From positions 62,001-126,000 of the forward strand of contig JAJEKV010000072.1 in the NCBI GenBank assembly GCA_021234155.1: a DNA stretch of 64,000 nucleotides, written 5' to 3'. Below, piece by piece: positions 36,788 through 63,573 of this stretch. Both the position numbers and the translations under genes were made by a program. The stretch comes from Isoetes taiwanensis (Eukaryota; Streptophyta; Lycopodiopsida; Isoetales; Isoetaceae). Numbering within the stretch: the stretch's first letter is position 1; each line of letters starts with the position of its first letter. A model generated the notes under the pieces. The model ran no database searches, was not told the origin of the DNA, and worked only from the letters and a program-made list of their open reading frames with translations.

Positions 36788-39700
36788 ATGGAAAGTCGCC
36801 CAACGAAAGGTAATGCTTGCATCACTGCCGGGTTGATGTCAATGTTTATTTATTTTTTAATAATGCTTCCCAAGACGACATGGCATCCATTCTGTCTTCC
36901 ATCTGTTCCCCTTCGTGCTTGAAAAGAAGCTTGCTCCTATTCATTCAAGGTCTGACCTGAAGTTACTGCAATAATGATCTTTTTTTCCTTCTAATCCCTC
37001 TCTATTCTATCCTTCTAATCAACTATCTTATGTGATGGATATTCGAGCCACCTAGACTTGCTTCCCTCACCTTCTTTTCTCAAGCTATTTTTCTGACAAT
37101 GACAGATTTCAGCATGAAAAAGGTCTGATAGTCGATCCACCTAACCTTGTTTCCTTCAGTACATTGGGCGCCCGCCCAATTTTTTTTTGATGACTCCTTT
37201 CAGCAGAACTGTGTTGGAAACTTGAAGTAGGTCGCCGTGATTCCCGCTTCAGAAACCCAAGGCGGCCGCCTTTTCTTTGCTAATAACTTCTTTCAGCAGG
37301 AACTGTGTTGGAAAGTCGAACAATGTCACCTTCATTCCCGCTCTCTAAATCGGGCGCGCGCCCTATTTCGCTCTGAGCAGATCACTTGCATGGAAGTCGA
37401 AGCACCTCTACTTCCTTCCCCTTCATTGAATTCGGCCAGGTTTCAAGCCTAACCGCGGACAAAATTGGGCCTCCACAAGGAAGCTTGTCGGCCTGGTGCC
37501 CGAACGACTCGCCTAGCAAATTAAGGCGGACGCCAATTTCGAAAGGGCATGCCTCTCCCCTAGCGCCACCTTGAACCATTCCTACTAACTTTCAAGTCAC
37601 TAAATTGGGCGGGCGCCCTATTTATCTTAAATGTATGCCCACGGTACTTTCCGTAAGCTGTACTCACTTCAAGTTTGATGCAATGCAGGAGTAATGGCAA
37701 GGACAAAATCGACTGCCCGCATGCCCGGCTATGGGCCTGGCTTGCCGCAGGCTGTTGCTGCGGCTAAAGAGACAGAGGAGGATGTGACATTTGAAGGAAT
37801 TGAAGTAGTTCCAGAAGATATCACTTCTGTTGCTGACAAGTACACATGGTGCATTGAAATTGGTAACGTGAAATTGAAGTCCAAAGACAAACCATCTGAA
37901 GGATTTATGTTTATATTTTGCCGTGCCTGGGACAAAGAAGACAAGCAATATCGGGATAGCAATTGATATGGGGATAAACGCAGAAGTACCCGGGGAGATA
38001 GAAGTTTTTGTGGAAGACGTATTGGACAAGTGCTTCCGTGCTTACAGGCTACCCCTCGCCACGTATGACCCTCAGCTAATGTCGGCAAGCATAACCGAAA
38101 ATCAAAACTCGTGCGCCGCAAAGGGTTGGCAGCTGGACTCATATGAGAGCTTGGAAAAATCTGGAATTAGAAAGCGTGGAGATGTTATTGACGGTTTCTA
38201 CACAGTCAGGCAGTGGATTCTTGAACACAAGCAGACCAGGTCGAAAGGCCTGTATACAGAATATCATGGGAAGGCCCAGCCAAAAGTGTATGACACGGCC
38301 TGGTTGAAGTCTCGATACGGAGTTACCAAAAAGGGAGACGTAGAGAAGTCTAAGGTAGGTGACAAAAGCACTGCTACAAAGAAGAAGAGATCGTCTTTGA
38401 CAACAAACCCCAGCATTGAGATGCCTGTTGTCATGCTTGGAGGTATGCAAAAGAGACCAAGATCCTCTGAACGGAGCAACACTTCCGGAGAATCTAATGA
38501 ACATTCTCCTGATCTTCGGTTGAAGAAGAAAAAAAGAGCAGAGGATCAAGCAGGCACCTCCCATAAGACACGAAGATGTCCCACTCCGCCTCAGAGTCCA
38601 TCCGCCACAAGCGAGGACAGTGAAACGGCTAGCGATAGTGCAGAGGGGGGATCACTGCCAATTGTACAGTATACAGCCTCCACTGGGGAGTTAACACAGG
38701 AAAGTAAGCGTGAATTATCTCAGAGCGCGATGTTAAACATCAAGCAAAGGGAGAGGATTTACCCACTTGGTGTAGGATTCGAAATTGAGGTCGACATATT
38801 CAAGATGCATCAAGCCCCTGCAAACATGACTTGCAGGATCATCAGTGCTGAACACGTGGATACCCTTTATGAATCTTTCATAACTATGCAAATGCATCCT
38901 CCTTGTGTAGATGTCGTTCCGTTTGACCCTTCAACAGGTCGTGCTATTAAATGGAAAAGAGCAAGTGATTTGGATAATGCAGAGTTCTGGATCGTTAATG
39001 GAAATCACACTACAGCCGTTACTCAGATCCTTGTGAACCAGGCATTGAAATGGCCTCCTGAAAGGAGCCATTTGAAAGATTTGATATTTTTCTTTTATGC
39101 GAAGAGAAAGTGTCGTGTACTGGCTGGAAACCTAACTCCAACGGAATATGTTAAGGTCAGCCAGGAAACAAATGATATCATAGTGAAGACAATTCACGCA
39201 GATGTCTTCTTTGAGGAGGTCCAGCAACTTCGCAATCAGTGGGAACTCTATGGCAAGCCCAAGAAAGGAAAGCGTGGTCAATCAACGGAAGGCGCTTACT
39301 CTGTAAGTTATGTCCCCATTAACCAAATCGGGCGCCCGCCCAATTTCAACCATCCAATTGCTCTTCTAATCTCTTCTAATGTATGCACCCTCAATCGGCT
39401 TCACTCCAAATAGGGCGCCCGCCGAATTTCATAGCCTTCATGCCTGTCCATATTGTAGTTTCGTCTAATTCTATAGTCGTCTCAAGTTGTCTTACACTAT
39501 CTTTTGTTCGCAGGAATGGCTAGCTATAGCAAAGCAGACCCTGAAGAATAAGAGCATACGGGACTATGATTATTTCGTCTATCTTGACGAAGAAACTTGG
39601 AATATGTGCACTCGAGTCGCTCAACTATTTTACGAGGACGAGCTGAAGGATGAGAATGGCGAAAGAATTGAAGTCAAGGATCGCCTACTTGATGTTCACA

Positions 39701-41530
39701 AACAATTTTGTCGGCCGATGAAGTCTATGCACCCCATGGATTTGCAGAGGTTAATGAGGGAGATCATGGCGTAAAGACGCTCATCAAGGCCACGAAGGCT
39801 TATAAAGGAAGGCGGTCATGAAGACTAGAGCGCAAGAATTAAGGAAGATTGGCATTGTTGAGCCGCATTACTGAAATATCTAAGAGAGGTGAAGAAGTTG
39901 AAAGTTGAAAATATGGATGAAGTCAAACAGTTTCATCCCATATTCACAGAGAACCTCATGCTAATGTTTGCAAACAGTGTCAGTGATTGGACGGAGAGTC
40001 GGAAAGAAGCTGAGAAGGAAAATCTACCAGAGACTCTTATTACAAAAGTGAACGAATACCTCCGTGGACCAGTTGAAGAGGGTCCAAAGGCTTTCAAATG
40101 CCTCACTGTCAGTCCACTAGGGATTTGTGTTAATGTCGTCAACACGTCAGCACGTCTTATTGGATGTGACTTTAGGAACCATATTAAATGGTCCGTGGAG
40201 GAGTATCAGAAATTCATGGATCAGATTAGTATCCTAACGGACCAGCAGTTGTATTGGATTACCATATTTATAAACCCAGAGCATTTGAACGAGTGCTTGG
40301 CTGCAATGAAAACTATAGACGGCGGTAGTCGGGTGTGGATTGGAGCATACCAGGATCCGAAAGCAAAGTCAGGGTCAACCTCCAGAGTTCGTGAGCTTCA
40401 GAGTCTTGTGTTGGTCATGTACGTGGCCCGAGACCAAGCGGCATCTCCTGCACTGGATGAATTGAATCTATGCTTTATTCAAAGTGACCATCCACAGCAG
40501 CATTCAAAATTTCCACAGCACCTTAAGGAGGCAGAGGACATCGCGAAGAAATTACCCGACGAGGAGTGCTCGGCAGGTAATATTCTTTGAAATATGGCGG
40601 TCGCCCAATTTATGTTGCTTTTGCTGAAATATTTTCTCTTTCAGCATATTGGTTGTATCGTCCGTGGGGTGATAAGACTGCAGCTGGTGGGTCTGGACCT
40701 CTCGTTCCGAATCAACTACAAGCCAAGACATGCACATATTTGGTGCGGAAACTCATGATGGAGGGTTGCAGTGTCCTTGATTTTTTTTCTGGAGGCTCAT
40801 TCAGTCGTGCAGCACTATGTGAAGGATACAAAGCAACTTCATTCGAGATGCAGGAGACCCTACAGCTCAAGCTAGTGCAGATCTTCGATCAATTGGAAAT
40901 AATGTTGGACGAAAATAAATCATTGGCCCGCCGGAGATGTAAGATTGCGAGAGGGCAAGAAGAAGAAATCAGGTTCCAAGCCTCCACAGTCCACAAATGA
41001 TTGCCCCACACCAAATCCATTCCCCGCCGGATCGCTCAGAACTGCAAATCCACGCCACCGAGTAAGGATTCCCTTTGCAGATCAAATAAAGAAGGTCAGG
41101 GATTAGGAAGTAAGGATCTATCCATCTTCCGAATTAAAAAGATAGAATTAATATGTCGGGCAGAACCCAAATGGTGAACACTCGATGTCATTGACGCCAG
41201 CTCGAAATTCAATGATATAGTGGACAATGATCGTGAGGAATCCATCGTGAAGGACACACCTCAAAGTCAGCAGGAAAAAGAACCAGAGAAAGCTCAAGAT
41301 GATGACGAGGAAGAAAATCGTGTACACAACGCTGATGTAATAATGGATGACGAAGGAGATGGGTGACATAGAGATAGGGCGTGGAGGGCCGATGAAAAGG
41401 TGGCTCCCCGAGCAATGAAGAGTTCATAAACAAGATGGAAGCTATAAAGGAAGCTGCCATGCAACAACAAGATCAACTTCATGACGCCGACAACACCGAG
41501 GAGAACCCCCGGATCCGCGAAAAACCTTAA
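36788..41530 (+). CDS. ParB-like / beta-class DNA methyltransferase-like multi-exon gene, copy 1
   Basis: Exon 1 (36788-36809, ATG GAA AGT) joins exon 2 (from 37689) in frame across an 880-base intron. Further introns are 39303-39513 and 40577-40644, all GT-AG. The product starts basic, then has IYPLGVGFEIEVD and a ParB/sulfiredoxin-like motif, FWIVNGNHTTAV. Exons after 39514 carry LYWITIFINPEHL and, from 40645, NQLQAKTCTYLVRKLM with VLDFFSGGSFSRAAL, which matches motif X and the SAM-binding FxGxG motif of beta-class N4/N6 DNA methyltransferases. The catalytic DPPY position reads SPLG, so activity is doubtful. An acidic tail (EKAQDDDEEENRV) leads to a stop near 41528. At least three frame changes occur between 37900 and 41000, so this copy is decayed or mis-assembled. 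It is paralogous to the gene at 59753-63573. Where the protein acts is not known; it has basic, NLS-like runs. Confidence 0.7.
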
Positions 41531-41960
41531 TGATTCATTGAGTTGTTGAAATTGGGCCTACCAATTTCACGATCCCACATATGTCGAATCTATGGTACAT
41601 CATGTATTTTTCTATCTAAAGTAAAACATATAATCTTTTATCTGTAACATTTTGAGATCTTGAAATACAAAATTTTCATGTGAAGTTGTTCATTCTATTG
41701 GATCTAATTGCTTGTATTCTAATAGAAGTCTGACATAATTGGGCGGGCGCCCAATTTCCCTGCACTAGAAGAGTTCCCTCATAGAAATTGGGCGGGCGCC
41801 CAATTTGAACCTTAAGGCTATCAATGCGAGCAGTTGAACATGAAGTCAAGTGGAACTGCCTTATAAATTACAAAAGCAAGAGTATTACTACAATCCGATT
41901 ACAACAACATGACTATCACATTACAACAATCTGATCTAGGGGACTCTTCCGAAATCATTT
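41531..41960. other. 3' flank of copy 1 with two palindromes
   Basis: AT-rich, non-coding sequence holding two of the best-preserved 22-bp palindromes (41737-41758 and 41785-41806), 26 bases apart in the same orientation. Confidence 0.6.
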
Positions 41961-42221
41961 TCAGCAGCCCACCCCGGAGATCTTTTCTATCATGTACATT
42001 TGATGCTCTCTATTCCATATCATGGATGGATGATAACATCGAAGGGATCGGGATAATGGCGAGGGATTGAGACTCACAATGGTCATCCAATCTTCCATGG
42101 CTATTTCTCGCCAAGACCTTTGCTTGAAGTTTTCGTGATTCATCTTGCACGTAATGGAATCACGCTCAGGACCAACAGGAGACCACATGGTTAGACTAAG
42201 GCCAAATTTGTTGGCCAACAT
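41961..42221 (-). CDS. small unrecognised protein, 86 residues
   Basis: A reverse-strand ATG-initiated frame (MLANKFGLSLTMWSPVG) whose C-terminal half, EDWMTIVSLNPSP ... MIWNREHQMYMIEKISG, weakly resembles the forward-strand frame at 42393-42659 (DTWLHGIATGRPK ... IVWVPERDAYEIDKITN). The two convergent-to-divergent small frames lie between palindromes. The similarity suggests an ancient pair of related small genes. No domain is recognised. Confidence 0.35.
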   Translation of the reverse strand: MLANKFGLSLTMWSPVGPERDSITCKMNHENFKQRSWREIAMEDWMTIVSLNPSPLSRSLRCYHPSMIWNREHQMYMIEKISGVGC

Positions 42222-42392
42222 TGGTTTGATATATATTTATACCAACCAAAATTATTGTTGGTATTGTACACAATAATTATTGGATATACTTACCAGTCGT
42301 ATGTACGCCCAATAATGTTACTACAGTGCTTCATCAATAATTACTTGGCTATAAGTATAGCCGCATTCGAGTGCATAGCACAGCCCTTTCCT

Positions 42393-42659
42393 ATGTCTCG
42401 CCGCCCTGCTAGAGTTCTTCAGAGGTCCCAATTGCCTCCACCTCCAGAGCATTTGGACACCCTCACTTGCCTCATGACTTTCGACGACCTTCATGCATGC
42501 ATTATCAAAGGGATCACCCTTGATACCTGGCTGCATGGTATAGCTACTGGTCGACCGAAAGACTCCCCCGGCGAGTACCATGTTACTATCCATATTGTTT
42601 GGGTTCCGGAGCGCGATGCTTATGAGATTGACAAAATCACCAATAATTACAATCTATGA
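42393..42659 (+). CDS. small unrecognised protein, 88 residues
   Basis: ATG at 42393 gives MSRRPARVLQRSQLPPPPEH, a basic and proline-rich start, then TCLMTFDDLHACIIKG and a W-x-x-E-x-x-x-Y-x-I-x-K-I end similar to the reverse-strand frame at 41961-42221. No known family. It lies just downstream of the methylase-like gene and between palindromes of the same family, so it may be part of the same unit. Confidence 0.35.
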   Translation: MSRRPARVLQRSQLPPPPEHLDTLTCLMTFDDLHACIIKGITLDTWLHGIATGRPKDSPGEYHVTIHIVWVPERDAYEIDKITNNYNL

Positions 42660-42984
42660 GATGTATTTCATAAGTTCATAAGAATTTATATCTGATATGA
42701 CTGTATTAGGTAGCATCCACACTTGGTCTTATAGTTTTCAAGTACTTTTAATTGCGTTCGATTAATTATATTTGTGACAGTCTGTATTTCTATTTTCTCA
42801 AGTCTAATTGAAATTGGGCGTCGCCCTATTTCCTTTGGATGCTTCTATTAAACTTTGTTCAGACGACTATCAGGGCAAATTGGGCGGGCGCCCAATTTGC
42901 ACAAAACAAATTGATGTCTACGGATTGTGGCCTATGCTCCATCATAAAAATAGATAGAACCGGTTCCATTCATTAAGAAATGCA

Positions 42985-43356
42985 TTACATAGATTTGATA
43001 CACATATTATTAAACCAAATAAAACAACATGCCTCGACGTAGGCGCCTCGACAAAAAACGTAATACAAAGTAGAAAATATCGGGTGCCAAGTTTCACCAA
43101 TGGCTAGTTCTACTTGAATAAGATCACCCCGATCGAACTCATCAATGTAATTTCTGCTATACAGGCCCAGCCATTCATCCAATTCAAGGATCGAGTGAGG
43201 AGTGTTGACAATGAGCTTGGTTACCAAATCTTCACGCTGCCTTTTCTTCTTTTTATAAAGCTTCTTAAATAATGGTCTGAATGAGTTGTGCAGCCAAACA
43301 TCCTCTAATTTGAGTAGCCTCTTCTGTGGCCTCTCCTCAGAGACAAGTCGTTTCAA
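42985..43356 (-). CDS. unrecognised basic-start protein, about 120 residues
   Basis: A reverse-strand frame with a Lys/Arg-rich segment (FKKLYKKKKRQREDLVTKL) followed by a segment with LDEWLGLYSRNYIDEFD and GETWHPIFSTLYYVF. The start is uncertain (the listed one is a non-ATG codon). It sits just beyond the last 22-bp palindrome. I do not recognise it. Confidence 0.35.
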   Translation of the reverse strand: MKRLVSEERPQKRLLKLEDVWLHNSFRPLFKKLYKKKKRQREDLVTKLIVNTPHSILELDEWLGLYSRNYIDEFDRGDLIQVELAIGETWHPIFSTLYYVFCRGAYVEACCFIWFNNMCIKSM

Positions 43357-44147
43357 TGATGTCGGGAAGCTTCCAACTCCACCCTAGTGAGTTGATAATT
43401 GTTTTCCTTTAACAACCCATCCCCACGGAGGAGCTTCATGACCTGCCCACCGATTTCGTTTCTTCCATTCCCGATTTATCTCATTCTCGCACCTCAACCG
43501 CAATTGATTCGCGGGCTAAGATCTCACTCATCGATATGGGACTGCATTTCAGTCATTGTGAATCCATACCGGCGCCTCGTTTCAACCATTCTCACTGCTT
43601 CGTTATGAATCTATGCTGCACAGATTTGCAAAACAAAGCCTCACTAGCAACACCTCACACACAGGACGCACTTTTCCTTGACCGCGAGTTGGGCGGGCTT
43701 GTCCTTGGCTTAATAGAAAAAGCTTCTGCCATATCACCTACCAGCACGTTTCCCGAAAAATTCCGTCATTCTATTTAAAAAACCATCATATTTTAGAAAT
43801 TTGACTCAATTTCGGAGACGTATGGACTCAGGGAAAGTCCATAAATAATGAAACAGTGCTTCCAAAAATTTAATTTCATTTTCCATCAACACTTTACAGT
43901 AGTATTTCTCAAAGTGCACCTGATATCCAAGATCTACTAATTCTAGAATGGGGCTCGCATGAAAACCACAAAAACCTCCCGATAGATAGGCTTCTCATTC
44001 ATCTCAACAGATTTTCTACAATGGTGGATAGTGGGAGCCGCACACATGCGAACTACCCACGAAAAAATAAAGGGAATGTCCAATTATATAATTTGGACCC
44101 CATAAAATACAATGCTAATAGATGTTTGGCTTGTGTACCTGCCGAAA
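43357..44147. other. no recognised gene
   Basis: No supported coding frame. A block at 43946-43980 (gaatggggctcgcatgaaaa) recurs at 44650-44690, so this area takes part in the local duplications described below. Confidence 0.4.
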
Positions 44148-44218
44148 GCTTATCACTGGGATTAAAAAACCCCGCCCTTTTGGGTTTTCGAGGAAAAACC
44201 CTAGTGATAAGCCTTCGG
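44135..44218 (-). repeat. conserved stem-loop, copy related to the LINE 3' region
   Basis: tgccgaaagcttatcact and agtgataagccttcggca form a long stem. On the reverse strand the loop side reads agggtttttcctcgaaaac then gggcggggttttttaatcc. A very similar loop with a different but still pairing stem lies at 49298-49365. Confidence 0.8.
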
Positions 44219-44469
44219 CAAGGGGCTTGGACAAACGTAAGGCTGAGAATTCGCTCCCAAAACCCACAAATAGAAAAGTCGAAGCTGCGGCCGCTCGCCA
44301 ACCTGTACCTGCACATCACCAATGCTAGAAAAAATGTGACAAAACAAACTTCCCAAAATGGAGGGGCTGATCACGCGTGCCACGCGACAATAAAACAAAA
44401 ACCTCTTCAAATAGAGGGGCTGGTCACGCGTGCCAGGCGACAAATACATTAAACAAAGAAGGGGGGAAG

Positions 44470-49297: not shown

Positions 49298-49365
49298 TTG
49301 CTACTAAGGTTTTTCCCCCGAAAACCCTTCGGGGCGGGGGTTTTTTAATCCTGGTAGTAATACGC
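49298..49365 (+). repeat. stem-loop near the 3' end of the GC-rich LINE
   Basis: attgctactaagg pairs imperfectly with cctggtagtaat around a loop containing tttttcccccgaaaaccctt and ggggcgggggttttttaat. The loop is shared with the reverse strand of 44135-44218, whereas the stem bases differ but still pair. In LINEs such 3' structures can be recognised by the reverse transcriptase. Confidence 0.75.
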
Positions 49366-49387
49366 CTGCTGCTCTCTCTTTGTACTT

Positions 49388-49505: not shown

Positions 49506-51245
49506 GAATTTCCTCTTCTTCCTCTATTTTTTCAGCAGCCAAGTTTACTGTTGCAGATTTCCCTCTACCCTTTGTGTTATAACTTCTGCCACCTCGAGCT
49601 CCTCCCTTGCCATTAGAAGTCTTCCCCCTACCAGCATTAGTTTTGAAACTACCTTTATTGTCCCTGGGACTGGGACAATTGTTTGCCATATGGCCAAAAC
49701 CTTGGCAATTGAAGCACTTGTTCCTCTTGTTTGATTTTGAACAATTAGCTTTAAGGTGCCCATAGACATCACAATTAAAGCATGGACCAATTTTATCTTT
49801 ACCATTTGAGGTAAACAAAATTTCACTTTGTTCTTCATCATCATTTAATACTTCATGCTGTTCTAGTTCTGTTTTTATCATTTTCTCAGCCTCCTCTCTG
49901 CTCTTAGCTACATTTCTAACTAAAGTGGCAAGCTGTTTATGCTTTGAGAATATCTTTGCAATGGAATTTATTTGAAACGCCTTTGATATGGGAACTCCAA
50001 CTGCTTCCATGTCTGCAATAATGTTGTCAATCTTTTCAAAAACATCTTTTACATCATCTTTATCATTAAACCTCAATTCTCTGAGCTCCTTGTCCAAGAC
50101 ATCCAGCTAAGAAGAGGACTTGACTTGATAAGTCTGTACCATGTAGGTCCACATCTCCTTAGGAGACATGCCTCTCATTTTTAGCAAGATAGCAGTTGCA
50201 TAAGTTCGTCCTCTGTTAGATACTTCCACAGTTGAGACTTGTTCTTCAACAAAATCCCATAATCCTTCAACTCTCAATACTTCTTCAATCTTTTCTTTCT
50301 ATACTTGAAAGCCAGCACCTCCTTTATAAACTTCAATTGCATTTAACAATGAAGCTCCCAGTCTACTTGTCGTTATTGCCTGCTCTGATACCAGATGAAA
50401 GCAATTTATGTTCAACTATTAGTCATATACATCAAGTTTGAATTCAAACCTTCAATTCCATAACTCCAAAGTCATGACTTAGCCATGTATATTTTTGCTC
50501 GCTCATATTACTTTCACAATGTAACAATGCCATGATAATTGTCTAGGCTAATTATTATTAAACAAATAAGACTATTGAGCAAATACACTGTTCAAATCGT
50601 ATTGACTCAGTTACTATTTATTTGTTGACCAAAGACAAAATAGACTTATAGAACAAATACTCTTTGGATTATCTTCGATCCAGCACACCAGAGTGCCAGA
50701 TCTATAATATTCATTTGATATATACACAATGATCCGTCGGTTGAGCCAAACCGAATGGATTTACCGTCGTTTCTATCATGATTTTGTTATGCCAGCTTTT
50801 CCTTCATTAGGTTAAAGTCAACATTCTATTTTCATAGTTTAAATGATGTATTTCGGTGCCTCAAGACCTTTCACCATTGCATCAAATAAACTAGGTCAAA
50901 TTCAAAGAATTTAACCTAGTGTATTTAACCTAGTAATGATAGCACCCTCATATAGAATTTGGCATGAACATTTCCAACATTTCATTAGTGTCGCCTGTAA
51001 CCTTAGGATCCAACCTCAACATACTCTTTTCCTAATCACCAATTCGACTCATATTGAGCATTTATCCCACTTAAATTGAATGCAATAGTTGCAAAAGCAT
51101 GACAAAGGTCTGTATGCTACCTTCAAAGAGTTCTTCTTGTCACATGGCCTTATGCAGTGGAGCTTTATTGTTCCTTTTAAAGTATGGCATTCAATTTTTT
51201 CTGATCTACCAATCTTTTAAGACTCTACCTCCCAGGAATACCTGT

Positions 51246-51710
51246 TGTGACGACCATACGGATATTCGTATCATACGATCATTATACAAAAGATGGTCGT
51301 CACACAGATGCGAAAGGGTAGTTGCACAAGACAGGGTTTGAACTCGCAACCTTCCAGTTGCGAGTCATACACTCTTGCCAAGTGCACTACCAATATTTGT
51401 TGAAGACATTCCTTCACGTCTTCCTCATATGTGGGACTACCTCCAGAAGGTTCTAGAATGTTCTAGAACCTAAATGCATGCGCGACACTTAGCGCGATCT
51501 CATCCATTGGAGTGGCGCGATCCTGACCGTTGGTTTAGATATATAAGGAGGCATCTCTTTCTTGTCAAACCATTCCAGTTCAAACTGTCATGAACCTACT
51601 CGAAAAACAAGGAAAATACGTGGAAAATATGCAAGAAATACGGAAGAAATACGCCAAGATCGGCAAAGAATCTGATATATGAACAGGAATCAATAATACA
51701 ATAGCCCGAT
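51246..51710 (+). repeat. 5' long terminal repeat of the chromovirus
   Basis: It matches the 3' repeat closely for about 335 bases from its start. Beyond that the two repeats are not arranged alike: part of the inner end is in the opposite orientation compared with the other copy. The inner boundary is approximate. Confidence 0.8.
51317..51391 (-). repeat. tRNA-like module in the 5' LTR
   Basis: 75 bases on the reverse strand begin ggtagtg and end ctacc (acceptor-like pairing), with an A-box-like ttggcaagagtg and a B-box-like ggttgcgagttcaaaccc. A strong ctcgcaac/gttgcgag stem lies between them. The T stem does not pair properly, so it is not a functional tRNA. It resembles the head of a tRNA-derived SINE. 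Confidence 0.6.
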
Positions 51711-51980
51711 TGAACCGGAATCTTTTACCGGTTCTTGCCTGCTCTGATCCTAAGCATCGTTTGCTCGTATTTGGTGATTTTATATCTATGGAGGAGGTTC
51801 CGACTTTATTACAGCAGGTCCAGCAGCTTGTTCAAGTATGCCAGCAGTTGCAGTTGGACAACAAAGAGCTTAAGGAACGTATTGCTTCACATGAATCTGC
51901 TTCTAGCTTGGGATTGAGGCTATCAGAGCCTAAGATCAGCCTGTCAGAGAAGTTTGACGGCACTCGGTCCAAGCTCCGTG

Positions 51981-53281
51981 CGGTGCTTCGATCGGCTCCC
52001 GAAATTAAGTCCAGGAGCCAGCCGGGTTCGCCCAAGCGAACCCCGAAAATTCGCCCAGACGAACCCGTGGGATTCGCCCAAGCGAACCCGCCATCTTGAT
52101 GTGGCGTCTGCGTGGCACTACCTACCGGGTTCGCCCAAGCGAACCCGAACCGGGGTTAGCCACCGCGGCGATGTCGGTCGCGATGGCGGTCGTTTATTAC
52201 CTGCCGCCGTTCGCCGGCCCAACCCCATGCTCGATCCGCACAAAAAAAAAAAAACAAGTACAGAGTTGACGCCCTTACTTTGTGGGGCTCTATGCAAAAC
52301 CAGTTCGCGTGGGTGTCTTTGCTCTCGTTTTTCCCGGCCGGTTCGCTATGGTGGATAGAATATATCTTGGCATCCGTGCGCTCACGGCGCCGTTGTCGGC
52401 CTATCTATGGATCCATACCTCAATGCCCCACTCCCCGCAAAAGGCGCATGATTTACACCTTCCCTTATTTTCCCCCCTTCTTCCCTCTGCGGATTTGAAG
52501 CTTGAATCCCTCACGGATTAAGAACAAATTCAGAATAAATGACCAAGAATAGAGACGTGACCCAACTACTCGTGGCAAAGATCAAGCGGTTTTTTTCTTG
52601 ATCAAGCCGGCATTATACTACATAATAGAGTTCTCAGATCAGACCAAAGCACCTTTTAATATGATGCTTAGAACCCAAAAGAGTCGAGGGATACAGAGAT
52701 GCAGTGCGACCTAGCGGGGTCTAATTTTGTCAATTCGCGAGCAATCCTTATCGATATGCAAAGGCAAGGGCTCCGCCTTCCATCTCCATCTCCCACCCAC
52801 TAACCCACTATGGCATCAAAAGAAAGGAAAAAAATTGGGGCCTAAATATTTTTTTCTCGATTTGCGCCAGAGGGCACGCTGCCTAATCAGCTCTTGAGCG
52901 CCATTGCCAATTCGGCGCAGCTTGGTAAGAAGCCATTGTCCTTTGCTTCAAAGGCGCCGATTTGCTCTTACTCATACCCGCACGGATGGGTCCTTTTTCG
53001 GTGATACAAATTGACGGGGCGTGGGTTCGCTGCGAACCCGGTAGGGTCGCTGGTCCCACCCGCTTGACTCCCTGCCACCTGACACTTAACCGCGGTTTGG
53101 GTTCACCCAAGCGAACCCGGCAGCAATGCCACGCAGGCGATTGCGCCCACGAACCGTCATGCCACGTCCCCTGCGGGTTCGCCTCAAGCGATCCGGCGGA
53201 GTTCGCCTGGCGAATTCACGGGTTCGCTGGGCGAACCCGCTTGGCATGTTGACTCAATTTCGGGAGCCAATAAAGTGGGCG
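51981..53281. mobile_element. Mutator-like non-autonomous element inside the chromovirus
   Basis: A 1,301-base insertion in the gag region is flanked by a perfect 9-base duplication, agctccgtg (51972-51980 and 53282-53290), the length typical of MULEs. Its ends are inverted copies: the left has ggctcccgaaattaagtc and the complement of the right has ggctcccgaaattgagtc at the same distance (13 bases) from the edge. No transposase is encoded. Inside both ends are repeated short palindromes, gggttcgcccaagcgaaccc and variants. Confidence 0.85.
52018..53245. repeat. second palindrome family (gggttcgcccaagcgaaccc)
   Basis: About eight to ten copies of an 8-base inverted pair (gggttcgc and gcgaaccc) with 1-4 base centres (ccaa, t, tgg). 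They cluster in the two ends of the Mutator-like element (about 52018-52150 and 53020-53245). The middle (52150-53000) has no recognised gene. Confidence 0.85.
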
Positions 53282-56200
53282 AGCTCCGTGGTTTTTTGAA
53301 TCAGATTAGGCTTGTGATTCAGCTCCATCCTCATAGATATCCCACAGCTCAAGAACAAGTGGGGCTGATTGGTTCTCTTCTCACAGGGCCAGCTCTAAGT
53401 TGGTTTGCTCCTTTATTGGAGAAAGGAGCCCCAGAGTTGCAAGATTTTGCTGCTTTCACTGCAGAACTCGAAGCATGCTTTGGAGACACCGATCGTCAGC
53501 GCACAGCAGTCACAAAACTTTGCAACTTAAGGCAAGGTTCTCGCCAAATCCGATATGCATCGAATTTCACAAATTGCGGTAATCGCCTGATGATATTGCA
53601 CTTCGAGATTGTTTCCGAAGGGGGTTACGAGAGGATGTCAAAGATATGTTGTTGTCTATGGAGGATCCCCAGAGTTTGGAAGAAGCCATCAGATTTGCAG
53701 TTCGATGTGATAATCGGCTCTTCGAACGTAGGCAAGAAAGACGTAGTCAGGTCTTTCCAATTACACAAGCGCCTGTAGCTACGCCTTCCCCAGTCTCATA
53801 TGTAGAATCTAGCAGATCTGGACCTGAGCCTATGCAGATTGATCGGGCAGTTCGAGGACCCTTATCTGCCGCCGAGAAGCAGCGTCGGAGAGAGGCTAAT
53901 CTTTGCCTCTACTGTGGAGAAGCTGGTCATATCGCTCGTGGATGCCCTGTGAAGCGCCTAAATCAGTCGGACGGTCCGAGTAGTAGGAGTCTCTTGTCGG
54001 CTGGCCACCTTTTCTCAGACTCCTTCCACATTTCCTGACATGTTTATTCCATCGGATAAGGTCAGTAAGGCATTCTTCATCCCTATATCATTGAAATCAG
54101 AAGTTGGAGAATTACAAGTGTTGGCGCAAGTTGATTGTGGTGCAAATGCTTGCTTTATGGATAGTGCGTTCGCCAGTAAGCACGCCATCCCTAGAAGCAA
54201 GGTTGAGCATCCTGCCTCTGTTGAAGTGATTGATGGACGGGAGATCTCCTCGGGTGCAGTCCACGTAATGTCATCGCCTCTTCGTGTTTTGTTCGAGGGA
54301 GTTTCTTGTAGTATTTCCTTCAATCTCATTGCTAGCCCTCATGCGCCAATAGTCTTGGAGTCTGCCTATCTCGAGCTACATAACCAAGAGATTGATTGGC
54401 ATACTAGATCATTTTGATTTGTTGGTTCTAGCTCTAGTTCCAGTTCCTCTGCAGATCAGGTCTCTACACCAACATCGACTTCGATCCGTGTAGTATCGTG
54501 GGCCCTGACGCCGTCCTTCTTTTTCCATGTTCTCGATTAGCCTCTTGCCTCTGCTCCGTTCATGCCCTAGATTCTCGATCATATTCTTGATGATGTCCCA
54601 GCTCCCAGCTCGGTTTACGCTGTTCCTGCTCCCAGTTCTTGCTCGATTCTTGCTTGCTCCATTCTGCTCCCAGCTCTTGCTCCAGTCTGTTCTTGCTCCA
54701 GCTCTTGATCCGGTCCACATTTTACGCTCGGTTCTTGATCCAGTTCATGTTCCGCTCCGCGTTCACGCTCATGCTCCCCTCCCTCTTTTGTAGAGGCTTC
54801 TTCATGCCCTGATTTTACAGATCTCGAAGAATTCTCTTCAGCGAGTTCGATAAATCTAGAAGGCAAGATCCAAGTTCAAGTATTTGCAATCCAGTTCACC
54901 CGTCGCTAGCTCGACACCATCGGCTCGCTCCAATGCTCCCGGATAAATATGGCGATTTCTCCGATGTGTTTGACAAAGTCAAGGCCAAAAACTCCCGTGA
55001 GCATCGTCCATATGATTGTCCTATTGATTTGCAGCCGGGACGACGCCATATATGGTCCGGATATATGGTCTATCTCCCCGCCGAGTTGAAGGTTTTATGG
55101 GATTATATTGAGGAGAATCTAGCCACATCGGCCTTATTCGACATTCTCGGTCCCTATTTGGAGCGCCTATCTTCTTTGTCAAAAAGAAGGATGATTCGCT
55201 ACGGCTGGTCGCCGATTATCGCGGCCTCAACAAAATCACGCGATCGAATCCAGATCCGCTTCCTCCGATCTCGTGAGTTGTTGGAGCGACTTCAAGGTGC
55301 GCGTATTTTACGAAGATTGATCTTCGGGTGCCTACAATCTTATTCGGATCCGGGAAGGTGATGAGTGGAAAACAGCTTTTCGTACTCGGTATGGCCATTT
55401 CGAGTACACAGTTATGCCATTTGGACTTACCAATGCCCCGGATATTCCAAAGATATGGCCAATGATGTTTTTCGAGAGTTCTTAGACACTTTTGTTATCA
55501 TCTATCCGGATGATATTCTTGTTTATTCTAAGACTCTCGACGAACATGAGAGGCATGTTCGACAGGTCCTTCAGAAGCTTCGTGAGCATGGGTTATATGC
55601 CAAACTTGAGAAGTGTCAGTTCGAGCAGGATAATGTGGAGTTCCTTGGCTATCGCATCACTCCACATGGAGTCTCTATGGACCAAAAAGGTTAGCACTGT
55701 TTCGAGTGGCAAACACCTTCATCCGCTCGCGATGTTCAAGTGTTTCCTCGGGTTTGCCAATTTCTATCGGCGTTTCATCCGGATTATTCTGAGATTGCTC
55801 TTCCTTTGACACGCCTCACGGTCAAGGATGTGCCATTTGAATGGACCGTGGAAGCGGAATCGCTTTTGTTACCCTCAAGCATGCTTTCACCACCACGGCG
55901 CCAGCTTCTTGCTCATGCGCATCCTTTGCGCCCATATGTTGTCAAAGCGGATGCTTCCGATTTTATGCGCTTGGTGGGATCCCCGCCTCGGGGGGGGATG
56001 ACCATGAATTGCATCCAATCGCCTATCACTCACGAAAGTTTCAGTCTCGCTGAAATCAACTATCCCATTTATGACAAGGAGTTGTTGGCGATAGTGGATT
56101 CTTTTGAGGAGTGGAGACGCTTTTACGGAGGGATCTCCTTATAAAGTCACGCCTACACGATCACCGAAATCTCGAATATTTTCACCGCTTCGAAAGTGCT

Positions 56201-57936
56201 CAACCGTCCGCCAGGCCCGGTGGCATACTCAAGTATTATCCCTGATTGATTTCGCGGATCAAGTACCGCCCCGAGCCCTCCAAGGAAAGCCTGATGCCTT
56301 GTCTCGACGCCTCTATCTTGAGCCCAAACTAGGTGATCCCGCATATGATCAAGAATCACGAAAGTTATTTTAGGGCCTGATCGGTTCCAGCTTATGGCTC
56401 TCACTTTGTTCGAGAGGCCTCATGATACGGCCTTGTTGGAGTCTGTTCGAGCCTCTCTGCCCTCCGATCCATTGGCTCAAGATGTATTCTCACACATTGG
56501 CGCCGCATCATCTTCTCAGCAGATGGGATCAGACTATGATCGTTTTGAGGTGCGCGATGGACTTCTGCTCCATGATGGGCTTCTATATGTGCCAGATGGT
56601 GCTCCTAGGCTTCAGGTTCTTCAGGCTTGCCATGATTCACCTATGGCCGGACACTTTGGAGTAGCCAAGACTCTTGAACTTATTAGTGGAGAGTATTGGT
56701 GGCCAGGTCTTCGTCGCTCTGTCGAAGCTTTTATTCGATCCTGTGACATCTGCTGTCGAGCCAAGGTTCCAAGGCATCTTCCTCATGGCCTGCTTCAGCC
56801 TTTACCGTTCCAAATTCCCTTGGAAGAGTATTTCAGTGGATTTTATTGTCGAAGCTTCCATCCTCACAGGGCCATGATGCCATCCTTTGTTGTTGTTGAC
56901 CGTTTTTCCAAGATGGCACATTTCATTCCTTTGCAAAGACTTCTATCTCTAGTGAAGCCACAAATGTTCTCTTGCTTCGAGAGGTGGTTCACTCCATGGC
57001 TTACCGTGATAACATTATCGCGACCGCGGCCCTCAATTTGTTGCCGCTTTTGGAAGCGTCTCTATTGCAACTCTTGCATGTGGAACGTTCGCTTCTCTTC
57101 CCGACATCACCCGAGACCAATGGACAGTGGAGTGCACGAATCAAACCCTTGAGCAAGATTTTTGCGATGCTTCATCAATTATCGCCAGGATGACCGGGTT
57201 GATTGGCTACCGCTGGCGTAATTTGCTTATAATAATTCGCCCATGCCTCCACAGCCGGACTCCGCTTCTTTATTAATTTCGCATGCATCCCGGTGGTCCT
57301 TGATTGCTCCCGGATATGATTCATCCAATCCCGTGCCGGGGACGGGCTCGAAGCTCCGCATGCTCCGTGATGATCTTCAAACCATCTTCTCCGTGCCCAA
57401 GCACGTTATCGTTATCATGCGGTCGGCAGCATCGCCGACGCTCCCTCATTTTGCAGTTGGTGATCTTGTTTGGCTCTTGCGTCGGGATTTGCCGACAGCT
57501 CGCCCTTGTAACAAGCTCGACTACCGACGCTTGGGTCCCTATCGGATCATTGACCGAGTTGGTGATGCTGCTTTTTGTCTGGAACTTCCGCCATCAGTTC
57601 GGCTTCACCCAGTGTTCCATGTGTCTTTGTTAGAACCCTATATGGCGAATCCATTTCCGGATCGAGTACCTCCACCTCCACCACCGGTCGAGATTGATGA
57701 TCATGAGGAGTTCGAGGTTCGAGAGATTCTGGACTCCAAGTTTCTCCGTCGACGATTGTATTACTTTGTTGATTGGGAAGGTTACTCGCCAAGTGATAGA
57801 ACCTGGGAGCCTGCCGAGAATCTGACTAATGCGCCTGACAAAATTGCGGAGTTTCATCACCGTTACCCGAACAAGCCAAGTTTGAGTACTTCGGCCCCAG
57901 CTTCGAGGACTCGTCGCCATCGTAGGAGGGGGATGG

Positions 57937-58456
57937 TGTGACGACCATACGGATATTCGTATCATACGATCATTATACTCGTATGTACAAAAGATGGTCG
58001 TCACACAGATGCAAAAGAGTAGTTGCACAAGACAGGGTTTGAACTCGCAACCTTCCAGTTGCCAGTCATACACTCTTGCCAAGTGCACTACCAATATTTG
58101 TTGAAGACATTCCTTCACGTCTTCCTCATATGTGGGACTATCTCCAGAAGGTTCTAGAATGTTCTAGAACCTAAATCCATGCGCGACACTTAGCGCGATC
58201 TCATCCATTGGATTGGCGCGATCCTGACCGTTGGTTTAGATATATAAGGAGGCATCTCTTTCTTGTCAAACCATTCCGGTTCAACGCCAGTCTTGAGCCT
58301 TCTAGGCATCTGTCTTGTATTCCTGCTTGCCTTCGGGCTATTGTATTATTGATTCCTGTTCATATATCAGATTCTTTGCCGATCTTGGCGTATTTCTTCC
58401 GTATTTCTTGCGTATTTTCCACGTATTTTCCTTGTTTTTCGAGTAGGTTCATGACA
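57937..58456 (+). repeat. 3' long terminal repeat of the chromovirus
   Basis: 520 bases, starting TGTGACG and ending TGACA. A purine-rich tract (aggagggggatgg) lies directly before it. A TATA-like word (tagatatataagg) lies near 58240. Confidence 0.9.
58018..58092 (-). repeat. tRNA-like module in the 3' LTR
   Basis: The same module as at 51317-51391, with one or two base differences. Presence in both repeats means it was part of the LTR before this copy inserted. Confidence 0.6.
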
Positions 58457-58517
58457 CCTGTAATAATATGAAATTTAAGTGCTTTAAGTGATGAACATTG
58501 CAAACAACTGAAAGGAG

Positions 58518-58766
58518 TTATCTTTTGATGTCATTACCAGATGGATGATTTTCAAAGTACCATTGGAGAAAAGCAACCACCTCCTTTGCACACTGCAGTT
58601 TCCATCCATTATACTTCATTTTCTCTTGAGTTAGTATCCTCTCTATAACTGCTCCAGCACCATCATGCTCACCTTTGCCATGTGAGCTAGCAAAAAAATT
58701 CCATAGAAGATCCTTGCCCATTCTTCCATAAAATCTACCAAGAAAATGGAATGAACCATCATTCAT
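58518..58766 (-). CDS. transposon-like protein exon with HGKG...DGAG motif
   Basis: A reverse-strand frame of 82 residues reads LLWNFFASSHGKGEHDGAGA then ERILTQEKMKYNG and KLQCAKEVVAFLQWYF. A W-x-F-F-A-x-x-H-G-K-G-x-x-D-G-x-G arrangement is found in a widespread group of uncharacterised eukaryotic, probably transposon-derived proteins. The rest of the gene is not found; the chromovirus inserted 60 bases downstream may have separated it from further exons. I cannot name the function. Confidence 0.5.
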   Translation of the reverse strand: MNDGSFHFLGRFYGRMGKDLLWNFFASSHGKGEHDGAGAVIERILTQEKMKYNGWKLQCAKEVVAFLQWYFENHPSGNDIKR

Positions 58767-59007
58767 TTAAATTGGATTTATGTCTGTTCCAAAAGCACGC
58801 CACTTTTGCATACCCTTTTTTCAATATAGTGTTGTGGTGTGTGATATGCTGTTTTGCATTGTTGCAAATTTTTGCATTATAGTAGTGGGTGGTTTAACAT
58901 TTTCTTGTTTTAGTGAGAAGAATGTGGGTTTGATTAGCATTTGTAGATAACAAATCAATATACACAGAACACTTTTTACATTGTATTCACTTGATATGAA
59001 GATTACA

Positions 59008-59648
59008 TCATGGAGGGACTAGTCCTTTCTTTGTCAAATAACTCTCAAGATAGGGATCCATCTCCTTAGTCCGATCTAGTTCTGAATGCGTTTTGACAAC
59101 ATTTGATAGTGTTTTACCAGCAGCCAAGCCACTCATGATGGACATGAATAGTACTAGAAACTCATATGTTGAGTAATCTAGTGGAGTATAAGTTGGTGGA
59201 CTTAGAGCCTGACCTTGATTATAAAAGCACTTAAGAGCATCATCATCTACTATTATGATGTCCTCTTTCTTTTGAATGCCAAGCTGATCCATCATAGTAC
59301 CAAGATGTTTCACGAAGACCGGTTTGCCATCCGGATCTCTTAGATGTGCAAACTTTATACACTTACTTTGGTCGCAAATCGTCACAAAGTCTCGATTCAT
59401 GCCTGGTAACAGCCTAAGTACTTCATCAACATTTCTGCATTCCATTGAGGACCAGATGGCAACTCGAAACAATCTGAACGCCTCATTCATCATATCTTCT
59501 AAGTGTGGACGAGGATAGATCCACTTAGTATTTGATTCTAGAGGGACTTGCTCGAAGTCATCCCTGTTAATAAGCTTCTTAGGAAATGTTTTACACAGGA
59601 CACTATTCAGATCGAAGACAATGATTTTGTCACAAGCAGGTGGAGCCC
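59008..59648 (-). CDS. FCP1/NIF-type HAD phosphatase domain protein
   Basis: The exon starts after an acceptor near 59649 and reads CDKIIVFDLNSVLCKTF, PRPHLEDMMNEAFRLFRVAI, WSSMECRNVDEVL, then LGIQKKEDIIIVDDDALKC, ending at 59008. These are HAD motifs I (D-x-N in place of the usual D-x-D), II (WSS) and III (VDD) of the NLI-interacting/CTD-phosphatase family, which dephosphorylates proteins such as the RNA polymerase II tail. The second motif-I Asp, the general acid/base, is Asn here, so activity is doubtful. A first exon with an ATG is not found. It lies 105 bases downstream of the ParB/methylase-like copy 2 on the same strand, with third-family palindromes in the gap. Confidence 0.7.
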
Positions 59649-59689
59649 TGAACCATGAAAAACAAAGAGTTAGCCATACAAAAGTGGTC

Positions 59690-59760
59690 TGTAATACACG
59701 CCAAGCGCATTTTGTCCGTCATAAGTAAGCTACATATCGCGCCTGGCGTGAATTATCTTT
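59690..59760. repeat. third-family palindromes between copy 2 and the HAD gene
   Basis: tacacgccaagcgcatttt and tatcgcgcctggcgtgaatt are diverged copies of the cgcctggcg core seen in the 62.1-62.3 kb hairpins. A related word, acacgcttagcgcgatttc, occurs at about 63593-63612 near the 5' end of the gene. Confidence 0.7.
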
Positions 59761-62700
59761 CATCATCATCGTCATCCCCAGCAGTCGTAGCATCTACTTC
59801 ACTCCCCGGATGCTTACTGCCAGAAGCATCAACTCCACGGTTTAGTTCGGACATGTTCTCTTCTATGAAAGCTGCCACAGGGTTTTGATTCCTAACCTCA
59901 GTGGTTGAATCTGAGCTTGCATGATCATCCTGGCTGGTATCAGGAACTACTGTAGTCGTACCCCCAAGCTGGACATTACCAGTTGGAATATTACCAAGCA
60001 TGGACTCCATATTTTGCTCCATGATCTCACGTTCCCGCACTAGCATTGCGGCCTTCTCCTCGGGGGTTGCATTACTTTTTGAACATTCTGGAGTTGCACT
60101 TGGAGGCTTTTGTGAACTAGTAGTCTACTTCTGCCTTTTGTAAGGTACCAAAGCCAAGGGATTTTTATCTTTGAGAGGACCCCAATCAGCCGTGGCTAGT
60201 AGCTTTTCGAAAAACACTTCAAGGAAATCCCTGGACTGGTCATCGTTGACGAAACTTAAACATCTTCTTGATGTCTTCAGGGCTTCTCTACCAATATACC
60301 CTCCAACATGTAATTCACAGCAAGTGGTATCAAGTGGTGCAAATGCCTCAAGAAGATAGCTTGCGAGATTGATTGCAAACCCATGTTTATTCAAGGGCCC
60401 CTTTTCTTTTGTCAGGGTAAAAGCATGTTAGGGTGTACCACTTTTGGAACCTGCAAAAGTACATACACTAGGTACTTCAGAACTGGGTACTTTCTCATTT
60501 TTATTTTCATTAAAACTAGTACAAAAGTCCAAAATAAAAGTCAAGGATGCATTAATATTCAAAGTTAAAATAAAGATAATGCTACCGGAGACCAAAATAT
60601 ATATAAAAGTTCTAGAATGTACCTTTTATTGAATATTAAAACCCAAGACCCACCGGGTACATGGTCACTAAATAATACTTTTATCATGCTTTTACCCGAT
60701 GATGTCCCCTTTGAAATTCCTCTTAGCTTCATCCTCATCATCTGCTTTGTAGAAGATATTTTTCAAGTTGGGTTCATCCAAAAGAAAACACTGCCATGCA
60801 CCTTTATCTGATGCCCCTTTGCTCTTAGCTACCTCATAGTCGTCATCTGGCACAAGGGATATTATCATGAAGATTATACAAGTGCTTTTAAACTGCATCC
60901 TCAAATCAGTATCCTTTGTCTTAAAGAGAAGAGAACCTTCCCTAACGACCTTTAGACATTCCAAGTCATATGAAGCCACCAAAGCATGCATATGAGGCTC
61001 TCTTGTGGGGGAGGGGCATATGATGACAATAGTAAAGAGCTTCTCAGTTGTTAAGTTTATGCAGCTAGTAAAAAAATTGTTGTACTCTTTTTGAGTCATC
61101 CCCTTCTCTCCTTTTGCAGTCCTGCTATCCAATACAAACAGAGAAATATTACGAGGGCCTATTGTTATATCGGGTATGAGACCTTTATAGCCAGTAGAGA
61201 CCAGGTATTGGAGTGCAGGTAAGTCACCACCAACATCTTTCAGGATGGCAACCTTTCTTCTCAGCTCAGCCATCACCTTATCTGATAGTTTTGTGGTGTG
61301 CTGTTGGTTCTTTGATTTCCTGTTTTGCAGAAATTCCTTGGACCAGAAGACGTATTTCTTGATGTCATCAGCAGACATGCCATACTTGTCTAGCAGGCCG
61401 AGTTCAGATAATGTTACATCACCAGATAGCTTCTGAAGTTCTTGACCAACTGCTACCTTCATAACTCGCATATCCTTTATATGAGTGCAACAATCAACGA
61501 AGGACATTTTGTCCTTGACTGAAGAAGCCTTCTTGTACAGAACTTCTTTGTTTATACATTGATTTAACAGCCAAATGACTTCATCATCCTGAAGGCCCTG
61601 TACTTTCCTCATCTCAGTGGTCAAATCAAATACTGAAGTATCTTGAGGAGGCACTCTTCCCATTGCATCTGGGAGCTGTTTCTGAGTATAAGCATCCCAG
61701 AACTCGTTCCACTTCGCTCAGACTTCGTCCCTAGCGAAGATGATCCTGTAGGCATCTGTAGGCCCTCTGGAAGATGCTTCAGACATCTCGCCTGCTTCCT
61801 CCCCAGTTTTTTTTCCTGTCTTTTTGGGCCTTGGTTTCTTATCCTGAATGATAGTCTGGGCCAAGGTCTTTTCCAATGCCTTATACTCCTCAGACTTCGT
61901 TCCTCCCTGTTTTGTTTCCACCAGTCTTCTATATTCTATCCATTGCTGGCGGGCATGACGGAGTTGTTCCACGTAAGGGCTGCACGAATAAGGAAATTAT
62001 ATCAGCCAATAGGAGCATGACATACAAAAATGAACCGCTTTTTAGATCAAGCCAACAGGATAATCAGGAAAGGACATAGTCAGGCGTGCCAATTCGCGTC
62101 GGGCATGTATTCATGCTGACAATTCGCAGGATGAATACACGCCTGGCGCGAACTACCTATAAACTGCCTGACCAAAACGCTTCTGGCGTGTATTCAGCTG
62201 GCAATACATGCCTGGCGCGAATTGCCAGTTGAATACACGCCAGAAGCGTTTTGGTCAGGCAGTATATTGCCAATTCGCGCTAGGCGTGTATTCATGCTGC
62301 GAATTGTCAGCATGAATACACGCCTGGCGCGAATTGGCACAGGTCGGACACTGTCTACTACTGTTATTCCTACTTAATATATCTAACAGAAGCGTACCTA
62401 ATGTACTAACCTTTTATAAAGAAAGACTTCGCCCACTTCGTTCAATGTTGCACTAATCTTTGCGAGGTCCTCTGCAGGGGTATGGGGGCTTAGAAACCGA
62501 CACCTCCTGTGGTTGTAATATAGCAGATACATGGTTTGTCCTGTTTGCTTAGCCTGGTTGGATAGGGATCGTTGTGCTTCAATAGAATGATGTCCGTCAA
62601 TAATAAGGAAGCGTACATTAGGGTTCCACTGTAAGCTCCTCTAGTGTTGTCCATTGGAGTGGAGCATCCTTTTTCCTATCCTAAGGAAGCACGTCTGCTG

Positions 62701-63573
62701 GCATAGGAACTTGGCCTGGATTCCTCACCATCGCCCTCAAGATTTCTCTAGCATACTCAGAGCCATACCTCCTGCTAACAAATGTTGACTTATGTGATCT
62801 CACCAGACAGTCAACATGGATGGGATGTGTAAAAGATTGGCCAAGTGGGTAGTTGTCTGCATACTTGACTGGCCTACTCATTGCCTCCAGCTGCGATTTT
62901 TTTCGGAGTCATTTTCTGCCAATATGCCATCAACTGTTGCAGCTGGGATGTCCTTTCCTAAGTCCAGCAATCTTCGTACATCCCTGATATCATTTTGATG
63001 CTTCAACTCTTCCAGGTAGTAACTTGGAGAAGGTCCTCGCAAAGCTCTCCTCACTGCAGACACCCCTTCACTTATAGACACTGGAGTGAGAGCAGTAGTT
63101 TGAGGCCATCCATACTTGAAACATGACTCAGCACTCACATCCTTCTTCATCAGACCATCTTTGAAAGCAGTTGCCCTGGCATGTGTAAATCTGACGAGAT
63201 CTTTCTTGTGGTTCTTCACAACCTCCACTAGGAATTGACAACATATGTCATCCTGCTCCTCACAAGTGATAAGAATACCTTGTTTTTTCATAAGATCGGT
63301 CTCTTTCTTCATGGAGTGTAACACAAGATCCACCTTACCATTTGTTTTGTCAACGTCAACATACCACTCCAAACTGTCATCTATCTTCTCCTCGGGCATC
63401 GAGGAATTGTGTTTGCTCTGATAATGGATCTGCTATCATCCATCGACAATGCATAGGATTGCGTCCTCGTTATCCCTTCTTCTGTGAGCTTGAGATAGCT
63501 GGAGTATCTTCCGCGCCTCTTGCTTTCTTAGAAGGAGGTGTCGCAATTACCAATCGGTTTTGTCTCTTCTTCC
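59753..63573 (-). CDS. ParB-like / methyltransferase-like multi-exon gene, copy 2
   Basis: Reverse strand. It begins with a basic, NLS-like exon (GKKRQNRLVIATPPSKKAR, about 63573-63466), then EKIDDSLEWYVDVDKTNGKV (63399-62878), YPLGQSFTHPIHVDCLV and a ParB/sulfiredoxin-like FLIIDGHHSIEA (about 62600-62560). An intron (62411-61981) separates LYKR from YVEQLRHARQQWIEYRRL. The large exon 61663-60692 has MTQKEYNNFFTSC and LFTIVIICPSP, matching LYWITIFINP of copy 1. 60394-60125 has NKHGFAINLASYLLEAF and ELHVGGYIGREAL, aligned to the SAM-motif region of copy 1 but without a clean FxGxG. An acidic tail (AGDDDDDER) ends at 59753. There is one in-frame TGA near 61719 and at least two frame changes. 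The order of parts matches copy 1 throughout, so they are true paralogues with low identity. If expressed, it is more likely to bind DNA than to methylate it. Confidence 0.7.
62088..62338. repeat. three back-to-back near-perfect hairpins in an intron of copy 2
   Basis: Hairpin 1: arms 62088-62118 and 62127-62153. Hairpin 2: arms 62163-62205 and 62221-62263, 42 of 43 positions paired, with a 15-base loop that itself holds cctggcgcga. Hairpin 3: arms 62269-62299 and 62308-62338, 30 of 31 paired. All contain the word tacacgcctggcgcgaatt or its complement. They fill about 60% of the intron 61981-62411. Confidence 0.95.

Follow-up and report, generated by a model that had tools for sequence, protein, structure and literature searches.

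Among the described systems closest to the locus reported here are the VANDAL transposons of Arabidopsis. In the available portions of PMC5735166 and PMC10398659, VANDAL elements carry VANA, VANB and VANC, the last with the domains DUF1985 and DUF287, and their motif forms dense 9-base arrays in one orientation. Within its own element, VANC21 is found at introns, intergenic DNA and terminal non-coding DNA; most of the motifs fall outside coding sequence, and they vary from one related element to another (PMC5735166, available portion). Fusions of ParB and methylase are known from bacteria, and one is reported to nick nonspecifically (PMC5512222, available portion). DNA methyltransferase (DNMT) genes have been captured by dinoflagellate and charophyte retrotransposons (PMC5890265, available portion). 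Here we describe two decayed genes, copy 1 and copy 2, in a 64,000-nucleotide stretch of the lycopod Isoetes taiwanensis (contig JAJEKV010000072.1, positions 62,001 to 126,000; ‘the window’, to which positions without a locus name refer). Both encode a ParB-like block followed by a methyltransferase-like part, and palindromes of ~22 bp surround them. The reading that we favour, with a probability of roughly 0.55, is that they are decayed members of a DNA-transposon superfamily, which would carry a divergent pair of a DUF7869 gene and a ParB-methyltransferase gene, use family-specific palindromes as recognition sites and have a VANC-like anti-silencing function.

Like VANDAL, the elements described here combine a transposon with an extra protein, in our case only predicted to bind DNA, and with short motifs in their own introns and intergenic DNA that differ among related elements. 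They differ from VANDAL in their proteins, DUF7869 and ParB-methyltransferase, and in their motifs, which are palindromes; the proteins scanned here gave no Pfam match to DUF1985 or DUF287 and thus do not count as VANC members. With the fusions of Streptococcus phage Javan213 and Latilactobacillus phage TMW 1.2272 P1 they share the order of a ParB-like block and then a beta-class methyltransferase whose motif IV precedes motifs X/I, but they occur in a plant-type genome with introns, the spacer that separates their domains is longer, the phage G-H-x-R is replaced by G-N-H-S or similar, and the element contains palindromes. The captured DNMTs are likewise DNA methyltransferases encoded by eukaryotic mobile elements, although they are C5-cytosine enzymes in retrotransposons (PMC5890265, available portion), whereas the genes here are of the amino-methyltransferase type and stand beside a DUF7869 gene. 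A literature search for transposons of plants or other eukaryotes that carry ParB or methyltransferase genes showed no such system, which is no proof of absence, as subscription journals were thinly covered. It also returned no paper on DUF7869, and three 14-letter strings of one of the palindromes (set 1, below) had no match as text in the literature.

Gene pairs and palindromes in the window and the genome

The first-pass annotation, made from the sequence of the window, had proposed two homologous genes with introns, and this was borne out, with both genes decayed. In a BLASTP comparison of composite translations, the ParB-like blocks of copies 1 and 2 align at E 3e-12 (23% of 242 columns), and their methyltransferase parts match weakly (E 0.005). 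The copy-2 protein as query recovers copy 1 from the raw window (E 3e-10). The introns of both have GT donors and AG acceptors, with the last intron equivalently placed, and frameshifts and stops break both genes alike. Intron 1 of copy 2 extends from about 63968 to 63574; a first exon at the end of the window is likely and may extend past it.

Set 1 comprises 14 palindromes with at most 3 mismatches at 35362-42898, and none was found in 100 shuffles. A weight matrix built from these same 14 sites scores them at 27.6-38.7, and the next-best place in the window at 13.0. The set starts upstream of the limit given in the first-pass annotation (36788), so that it also spans the 5′ flank of a DUF7869 gene, divergent from copy 1, that had been overlooked. 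Set 2 comprises 6 sites by the same threshold, again with none in 100 shuffles, and 5 of the 6 are contained in a foldback with 127-nt arms that are 89% complementary; including 4 more degenerate ones derived from repeats, there are 10 set-2 places at 59691-63610. Modelled exons overlap none of the 14 set-1 sites and 10 set-2 places. For one of them, the set-1 site at 35362 in the open frame 34650-35399, non-coding status is an assumption, as the exon end is assumed at 35353. CpG is retained at 28 of 28 core places of set 1, with an observed/expected ratio of 0.64 for CpG in the element, which is weak support because the sites were chosen by similarity. The exact set-1 palindrome had no match in viral contigs, and no Rfam family and no tRNA was found in the window.

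A read-through query of the DUF7869 gene found 38 database relatives (best E 3e-101), one of them named, from the liverwort Riccia sorocarpa. In an alignment of 13 of the 38, the motifs HDKMDQ, Q-x-D-N and GHTHEDID are invariant, and we take them to hold the acidic residues of an RNase-H-like transposase. Several relatives also contain PF26133, presumably DUF8039. DUF7869 was not found in the viral contigs and genome contigs searched. In the 1.658-Gb Isoetes genome, a first look gave 9902 candidates, of which 150 were scored, all above the cut-off. Because of the invariant acidic motifs and the copy number, we judge the DUF7869 protein to be a transposase, and the earlier suggestion of a mobile system is upheld by the 150 scored matches.

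We read the 5′ flanks of 16 of the 150 scored genes (loci L026-L037, 10 kb each, and L043-L046, 7 kb each) and the 3′ flanks of seven (L038-L042, 10 kb; L047 and L048, 5.5 kb), and searched them for five site families at up to 4 mismatches: set 1, set 2, GCGGTATAAATTTATACCGC, AAGTGTATTCCGGAATACACTT and AAATGGCGCAGCTGCGCCATTT (GTATA, GTGTATTC and GGCGCA serve as short labels for site families). In the loci read, the two genes stand as a divergent pair, and the element families have several to many ~22-bp palindromes of their own in non-coding parts, between both genes and among the ParB-methyltransferase exons. At least three copies of one palindrome family are present in 15 of 16 5′ flanks and in none of the seven 3′ flanks. 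A ParB-methyltransferase-type gene is present in 14 of the 5′ flanks, which include the query sources L033 and L035 themselves, and again in no 3′ flank. Detection of near-perfect palindrome clusters without any consensus gave 12/16 and 0/7 (p 0.001), and a second batch of four new 5′ and two new 3′ flanks gave 4/4 and 0/2 for both sites and gene. The second gene of L036 was found with copy 1 as query (E 1e-23), and it was the only one found among the first 12 5′ flanks when copies 1 and 2 were the queries; at L031 the match is restricted to the part preceding the ParB block. Finally, none of 196 sites (three families, 15 loci) falls within coding sequence recognised by tblastn, with 63.7 expected from the coding share, although unrecognised exons could hold some.

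Also near DUF7869 genes are two long open frames, L028:1564-3396 (611 aa) and L039:5452-8349 (966 aa), which are 37% alike.

The ParB-like and methyltransferase-like parts

The second genes of the other loci, here called relatives, are better preserved in motif IV than copies 1 and 2. Motif IV is DIPY or DLPY in all 11 loci with a methyltransferase match (some frames are broken, and one locus is the query), and it is followed by HYQKP...DAFSGSGTT in 5 of 9 loci searched. The relatives thus have motif IV ahead of motifs X and I, the order of a beta-class amino-methyltransferase. With hhalign, whose E-values here are for single comparisons and not database searches, they match seven phage ParB-methylase fusions over motifs X/I (probability 98, E 8e-13, reversed 0.15) and over the motif IV region (probability 91, E 1e-6, reversed 0.21). 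The Pfam methyltransferase family UPF0020 matches L035 at E 0.0025, short of the family cut-off.

In copies 1 and 2 and in L036 the outline of the protein is retained and motif IV, (D/N/S)-x-P-(Y/F/W), is lost: copy 1 has SPLG in its place and copy 2 GPRN, and none is seen in L036. Motif I reads DFFSGG in copy 1, ELHVGG in copy 2 and DFFSGG in L036. Since motif IV is missing, methylation by copies 1 and 2 is unlikely. Pairwise searches failed to link these two copies with the second genes of L032, L033 and L035, and profiles were therefore compared. For the ParB block, copies 1 and 2 and L036, combined into a profile, match L032/L033/L035 (E 1e-4, 102 columns, reversed 0.22). For motifs X/I, a profile that also includes a third paralogue from the window matches four relatives at E 2e-7 (reversed 0.66); singly, the E-values are 0.0017 for copy 1, 0.0057 for copy 2, 0.00014 for L036 and 0.066 for the third paralogue. 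Because of these profile matches, the same domain order and the same position beside DUF7869, we take copies 1 and 2 and the relatives as one superfamily. The first-pass assignment of a ParB-like protein fused to a beta-class methyltransferase therefore stands for the relatives, which match the phage fusions, and for the copies by way of the relatives that they join, but without motif IV in the copies themselves. Against 14 phage ParB blocks, these six sequences (copies 1 and 2, L036, L032, L033 and L035) together gave E 0.01, and the first three by themselves E 0.026.

Searches by sequence gave no significant match to solved structures (best E 0.55), and no relatives of the ParB block in phage records. 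None of the candidates scored from a collection of 5.8 billion proteins was a relative of copy 1, or of copies 1 and 2 together, and viral contigs and genome contigs yielded no relative either. Some plants are covered by this protein collection, since it yielded the 38 DUF7869 relatives, one from a liverwort.

Coordinates and neighbouring features

Table 1. Positions of the genes, palindromes and related fragments in the window
Feature	Position	Strand	Match or remark
Copy 1, decayed ParB-like + methyltransferase-like gene	36788-41530	+	homologous to copy 2
Copy 1, modelled exons	36788-36809, 37690-39302, 39514-40576, 40645-41529	+	
Copy 1, ParB-like block	38730-39302	+	BLASTP to copy 2, E 3e-12
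Copy 1, methyltransferase-like first half, motif IV place SPLG	39865-40575	+	alignment with copy 2; L036 homologue, E 1e-23
Copy 1, motif X/I exon (VLDFFSGGS)	40645-40926	+	PHROG DNA methyltransferase, E 0.0018; hhalign to phage fusions, E 0.0004
Copy 2, decayed ParB-like + methyltransferase-like gene with acidic tail	59753-64000	-	
Decayed DUF7869 gene, divergent from copy 1	32842-35399	-	Pfam DUF7869, E 2.7e-27 (32845-33459) and 8e-5 (33327-33746, other frame)
Set 1, 5 sites, 5′ side of DUF7869 gene	35362-35751		
Set 1, 3 sites, copy 1 intron 1	37161-37623		
Set 1, 2 sites, copy 1 intron 2	39325-39429		
Set 1, 1 site, copy 1 intron 3	40590-40611		
Set 1, 3 sites, copy 1 3′ flank	41736-42898		
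Set 2, two degenerate places between copy 2 and phosphatase-like frame	59691-59756		
Set 2, sites in intronic foldback of copy 2	62086-62340		
Set 2, site in copy 2 intron 1	63590-63610		
Third paralogue, motif X/I exon fragment in 599-bp repeat	30428-31026	-	hidden Markov model (HMM) of copies 1+2, E 4e-5 among 829 open reading frames (ORFs)
Third paralogue, second copy (90% identical DNA)	18185-18766	+	HMM of copies 1+2, E 9e-4 among 829 ORFs
NIF/CTD-phosphatase-like exon directly 3′ of copy 2	59008-59649	-	Pfam NIF, E 2.2e-13
Phosphatase-like remnant after third paralogue	19280-19586	+	tblastn with copy-2 phosphatase, 19380-19586, E 5e-4, 32%; start ~19280 by eye

Copy 2 is followed by a phosphatase-like frame, as is the third paralogue at 18 kb, and in L023, immediately to the right of the window, such a frame (62%, E 3e-17) comes after an exon like that of copy 2, so this gene order is seen three times. 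No convincing frame of this kind was found downstream of copy 1. About 0.7 kb past the remnant that follows the third paralogue are about five tandem 29-bp repeats (CCCTTTAGGCTAAAAATTTTC..., 20267-20433).

The rest of the window includes a Ty3/gypsy element at 51243-58284, with long terminal repeats of about 341-351 bp (95% identical) and chromodomain and integrase parts; at ~52.0-53.2 kb it contains GGGTTCGC...GCGAACCC palindromes. At 14229-16351 (-) is a gene for an L-type lectin receptor kinase, a type that is ordinary in land plants, and remains of a LINE-like retrotransposon with an endonuclease domain and a weak reverse transcriptase start lie at 24762-29941 (+). Broken frames at 2138-3518 (+) gave no meaningful Pfam match; we take them to be reminiscent of Crypton-type tyrosine recombinases.

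Possible roles of the palindromes

If the favoured reading is correct, a dimer of the ParB-methyltransferase would bind the palindromes of its own family and thereby find the element that encodes it. Where the motifs of a family are intact, the protein may methylate adenine or N4-cytosine at the palindromes, and in families with a dead catalytic site, such as those of copies 1 and 2, the binding role alone would be kept. The bound protein would keep the non-coding DNA of the element open against silencing by the host, as VANC does for VANDAL; it is because of the VANC21 precedent that we propose an anti-silencing role.

A different protein could, however, be the one that reads the sites. The subterminal repeats of CACTA elements are bound by the transposase, and the palindromes might similarly be binding sites of the DUF7869 transposase, with the ParB-methyltransferase a passenger or acting elsewhere. 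We regard this as doubtful, but it accommodates the 15 of 16 flanks that have sites 5′ of the DUF7869 gene, and also L030, with sites and no detected second gene. It fits less well with the sites that lie within introns of the second gene, and with the lack of sites in seven 3′ flanks of 5.5-10 kb each, since subterminal sites would be expected at both ends of the element, although no such ends were found here. In another alternative, which we consider unlikely, the palindromes are methylation targets of the enzyme that label the element as self, in the manner of phage modification, and binding matters little. Motifs IV and I are intact in several families, and phage fusions of like make-up are annotated as DNA modification methylases. 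Yet motif IV is lost in copies 1 and 2 and in L036, although 14 and 7 sites are present in the window and 22 in L036, and a site of 22 bp is long for a methylase. That the palindromes are small mobile repeats with no tie to the proteins is very improbable: every counted site is non-coding, as insertion and selection would also give, and site-less paralogue fragments exist, but the five site families are absent from the seven 3′ flanks and from loci L024 and L025, and sets 1 and 2 are restricted to two gene regions within the window.

Of the 20 loci L023-L042, eight have none of the site families, ten have one and two have two; the window has sets 1 and 2, at different genes. In one of the loci with two families, L036, 22 AAATGGCGCAGCTGCGCCATTT sites lie near the copy-1-like gene, whereas 3 GTATA sites accompany a DUF7869 gene resembling that of L035. 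Several observations weigh against the favoured reading. In L023, set-1-type and set-2-type sites form separate clusters, and the set-1-type cluster (7 sites, 1708-2267) directly precedes an exon that is 56% identical to copy 2. The idea that each gene has its own palindrome set thus holds within the window, where neither set occurs at the other gene, but not just outside it, and L023 argues against a strict pairing of site type with methyltransferase lineage. Recombination between elements, or another domain that sets specificity, could explain this locus. Furthermore, the third paralogue is without a palindrome cluster, though it is itself fragmentary. L024 has none of the five site families despite a 48-aa fragment (L024:9007-9150, -), ~19 kb right of the window, like the L036 methyltransferase-like protein (46%, E 2e-9), though this too is only a fragment. 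The proposal that the palindromes diversified along with the gene therefore survives in part: they differ between element families, but do not strictly follow the lineage. As to the survey, flanks were chosen as top matches and for long open frames, not at random, and the consensuses were derived from the very loci counted. The Fisher values comparing 5′ with 3′ flanks, 3e-5 for sites and 1.5e-4 for the gene, are too small, because copies of one family are non-independent. L028 has neither sites nor a second gene, L030 has 4 sites and the second gene is undetected, and around the decayed copy 1 element no convincing terminal inverted repeats and no element ends were found.

The remaining points concern the proteins. 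Copy 2 alone and the third paralogue alone gave no match to the phage fusions (E 0.36 and 0.22). Pfam gave no ParB match for the copies or the relatives scanned, and ParB-like PHROGs matched one of four proteins (L035, E 0.013 and 0.039; none for L032, L033 and L037). The L032/L033/L035 profile matches the 14 phage ParB blocks weakly (hhalign E 0.0016, reversed 0.4), and the arginine of the phage G-H-x-R is absent from the six aligned sequences, which have GNHT, GHHS, GNHS or GTHS. An AlphaFold model of the ParB block reached a predicted local distance difference test score of 35. When copies 1 and 2 alone supplied the profile of the ParB block, its alignment to phage ParB was out of register, and this match was discarded as evidence.

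More tentatively, a phage-type ParB-methyltransferase may have been turned into a self-recognition system, in which the protein of each lineage would read and, where intact, mark (with N6-methyladenine or N4-methylcytosine) its own palindromes throughout the non-coding DNA of the element, hiding the element from silencing, with protein and palindrome changing together between families. If true, sequence-specific self-recognition would have evolved a second time, independently, in a plant transposon, in this case from phage-type parts. The genome would then hold naturally replicated pairs of protein and site, which would make the co-evolution of transposons and silencing directly testable, and the superfamily would supply new eukaryotic proteins that bind or mark DNA at specific sites.

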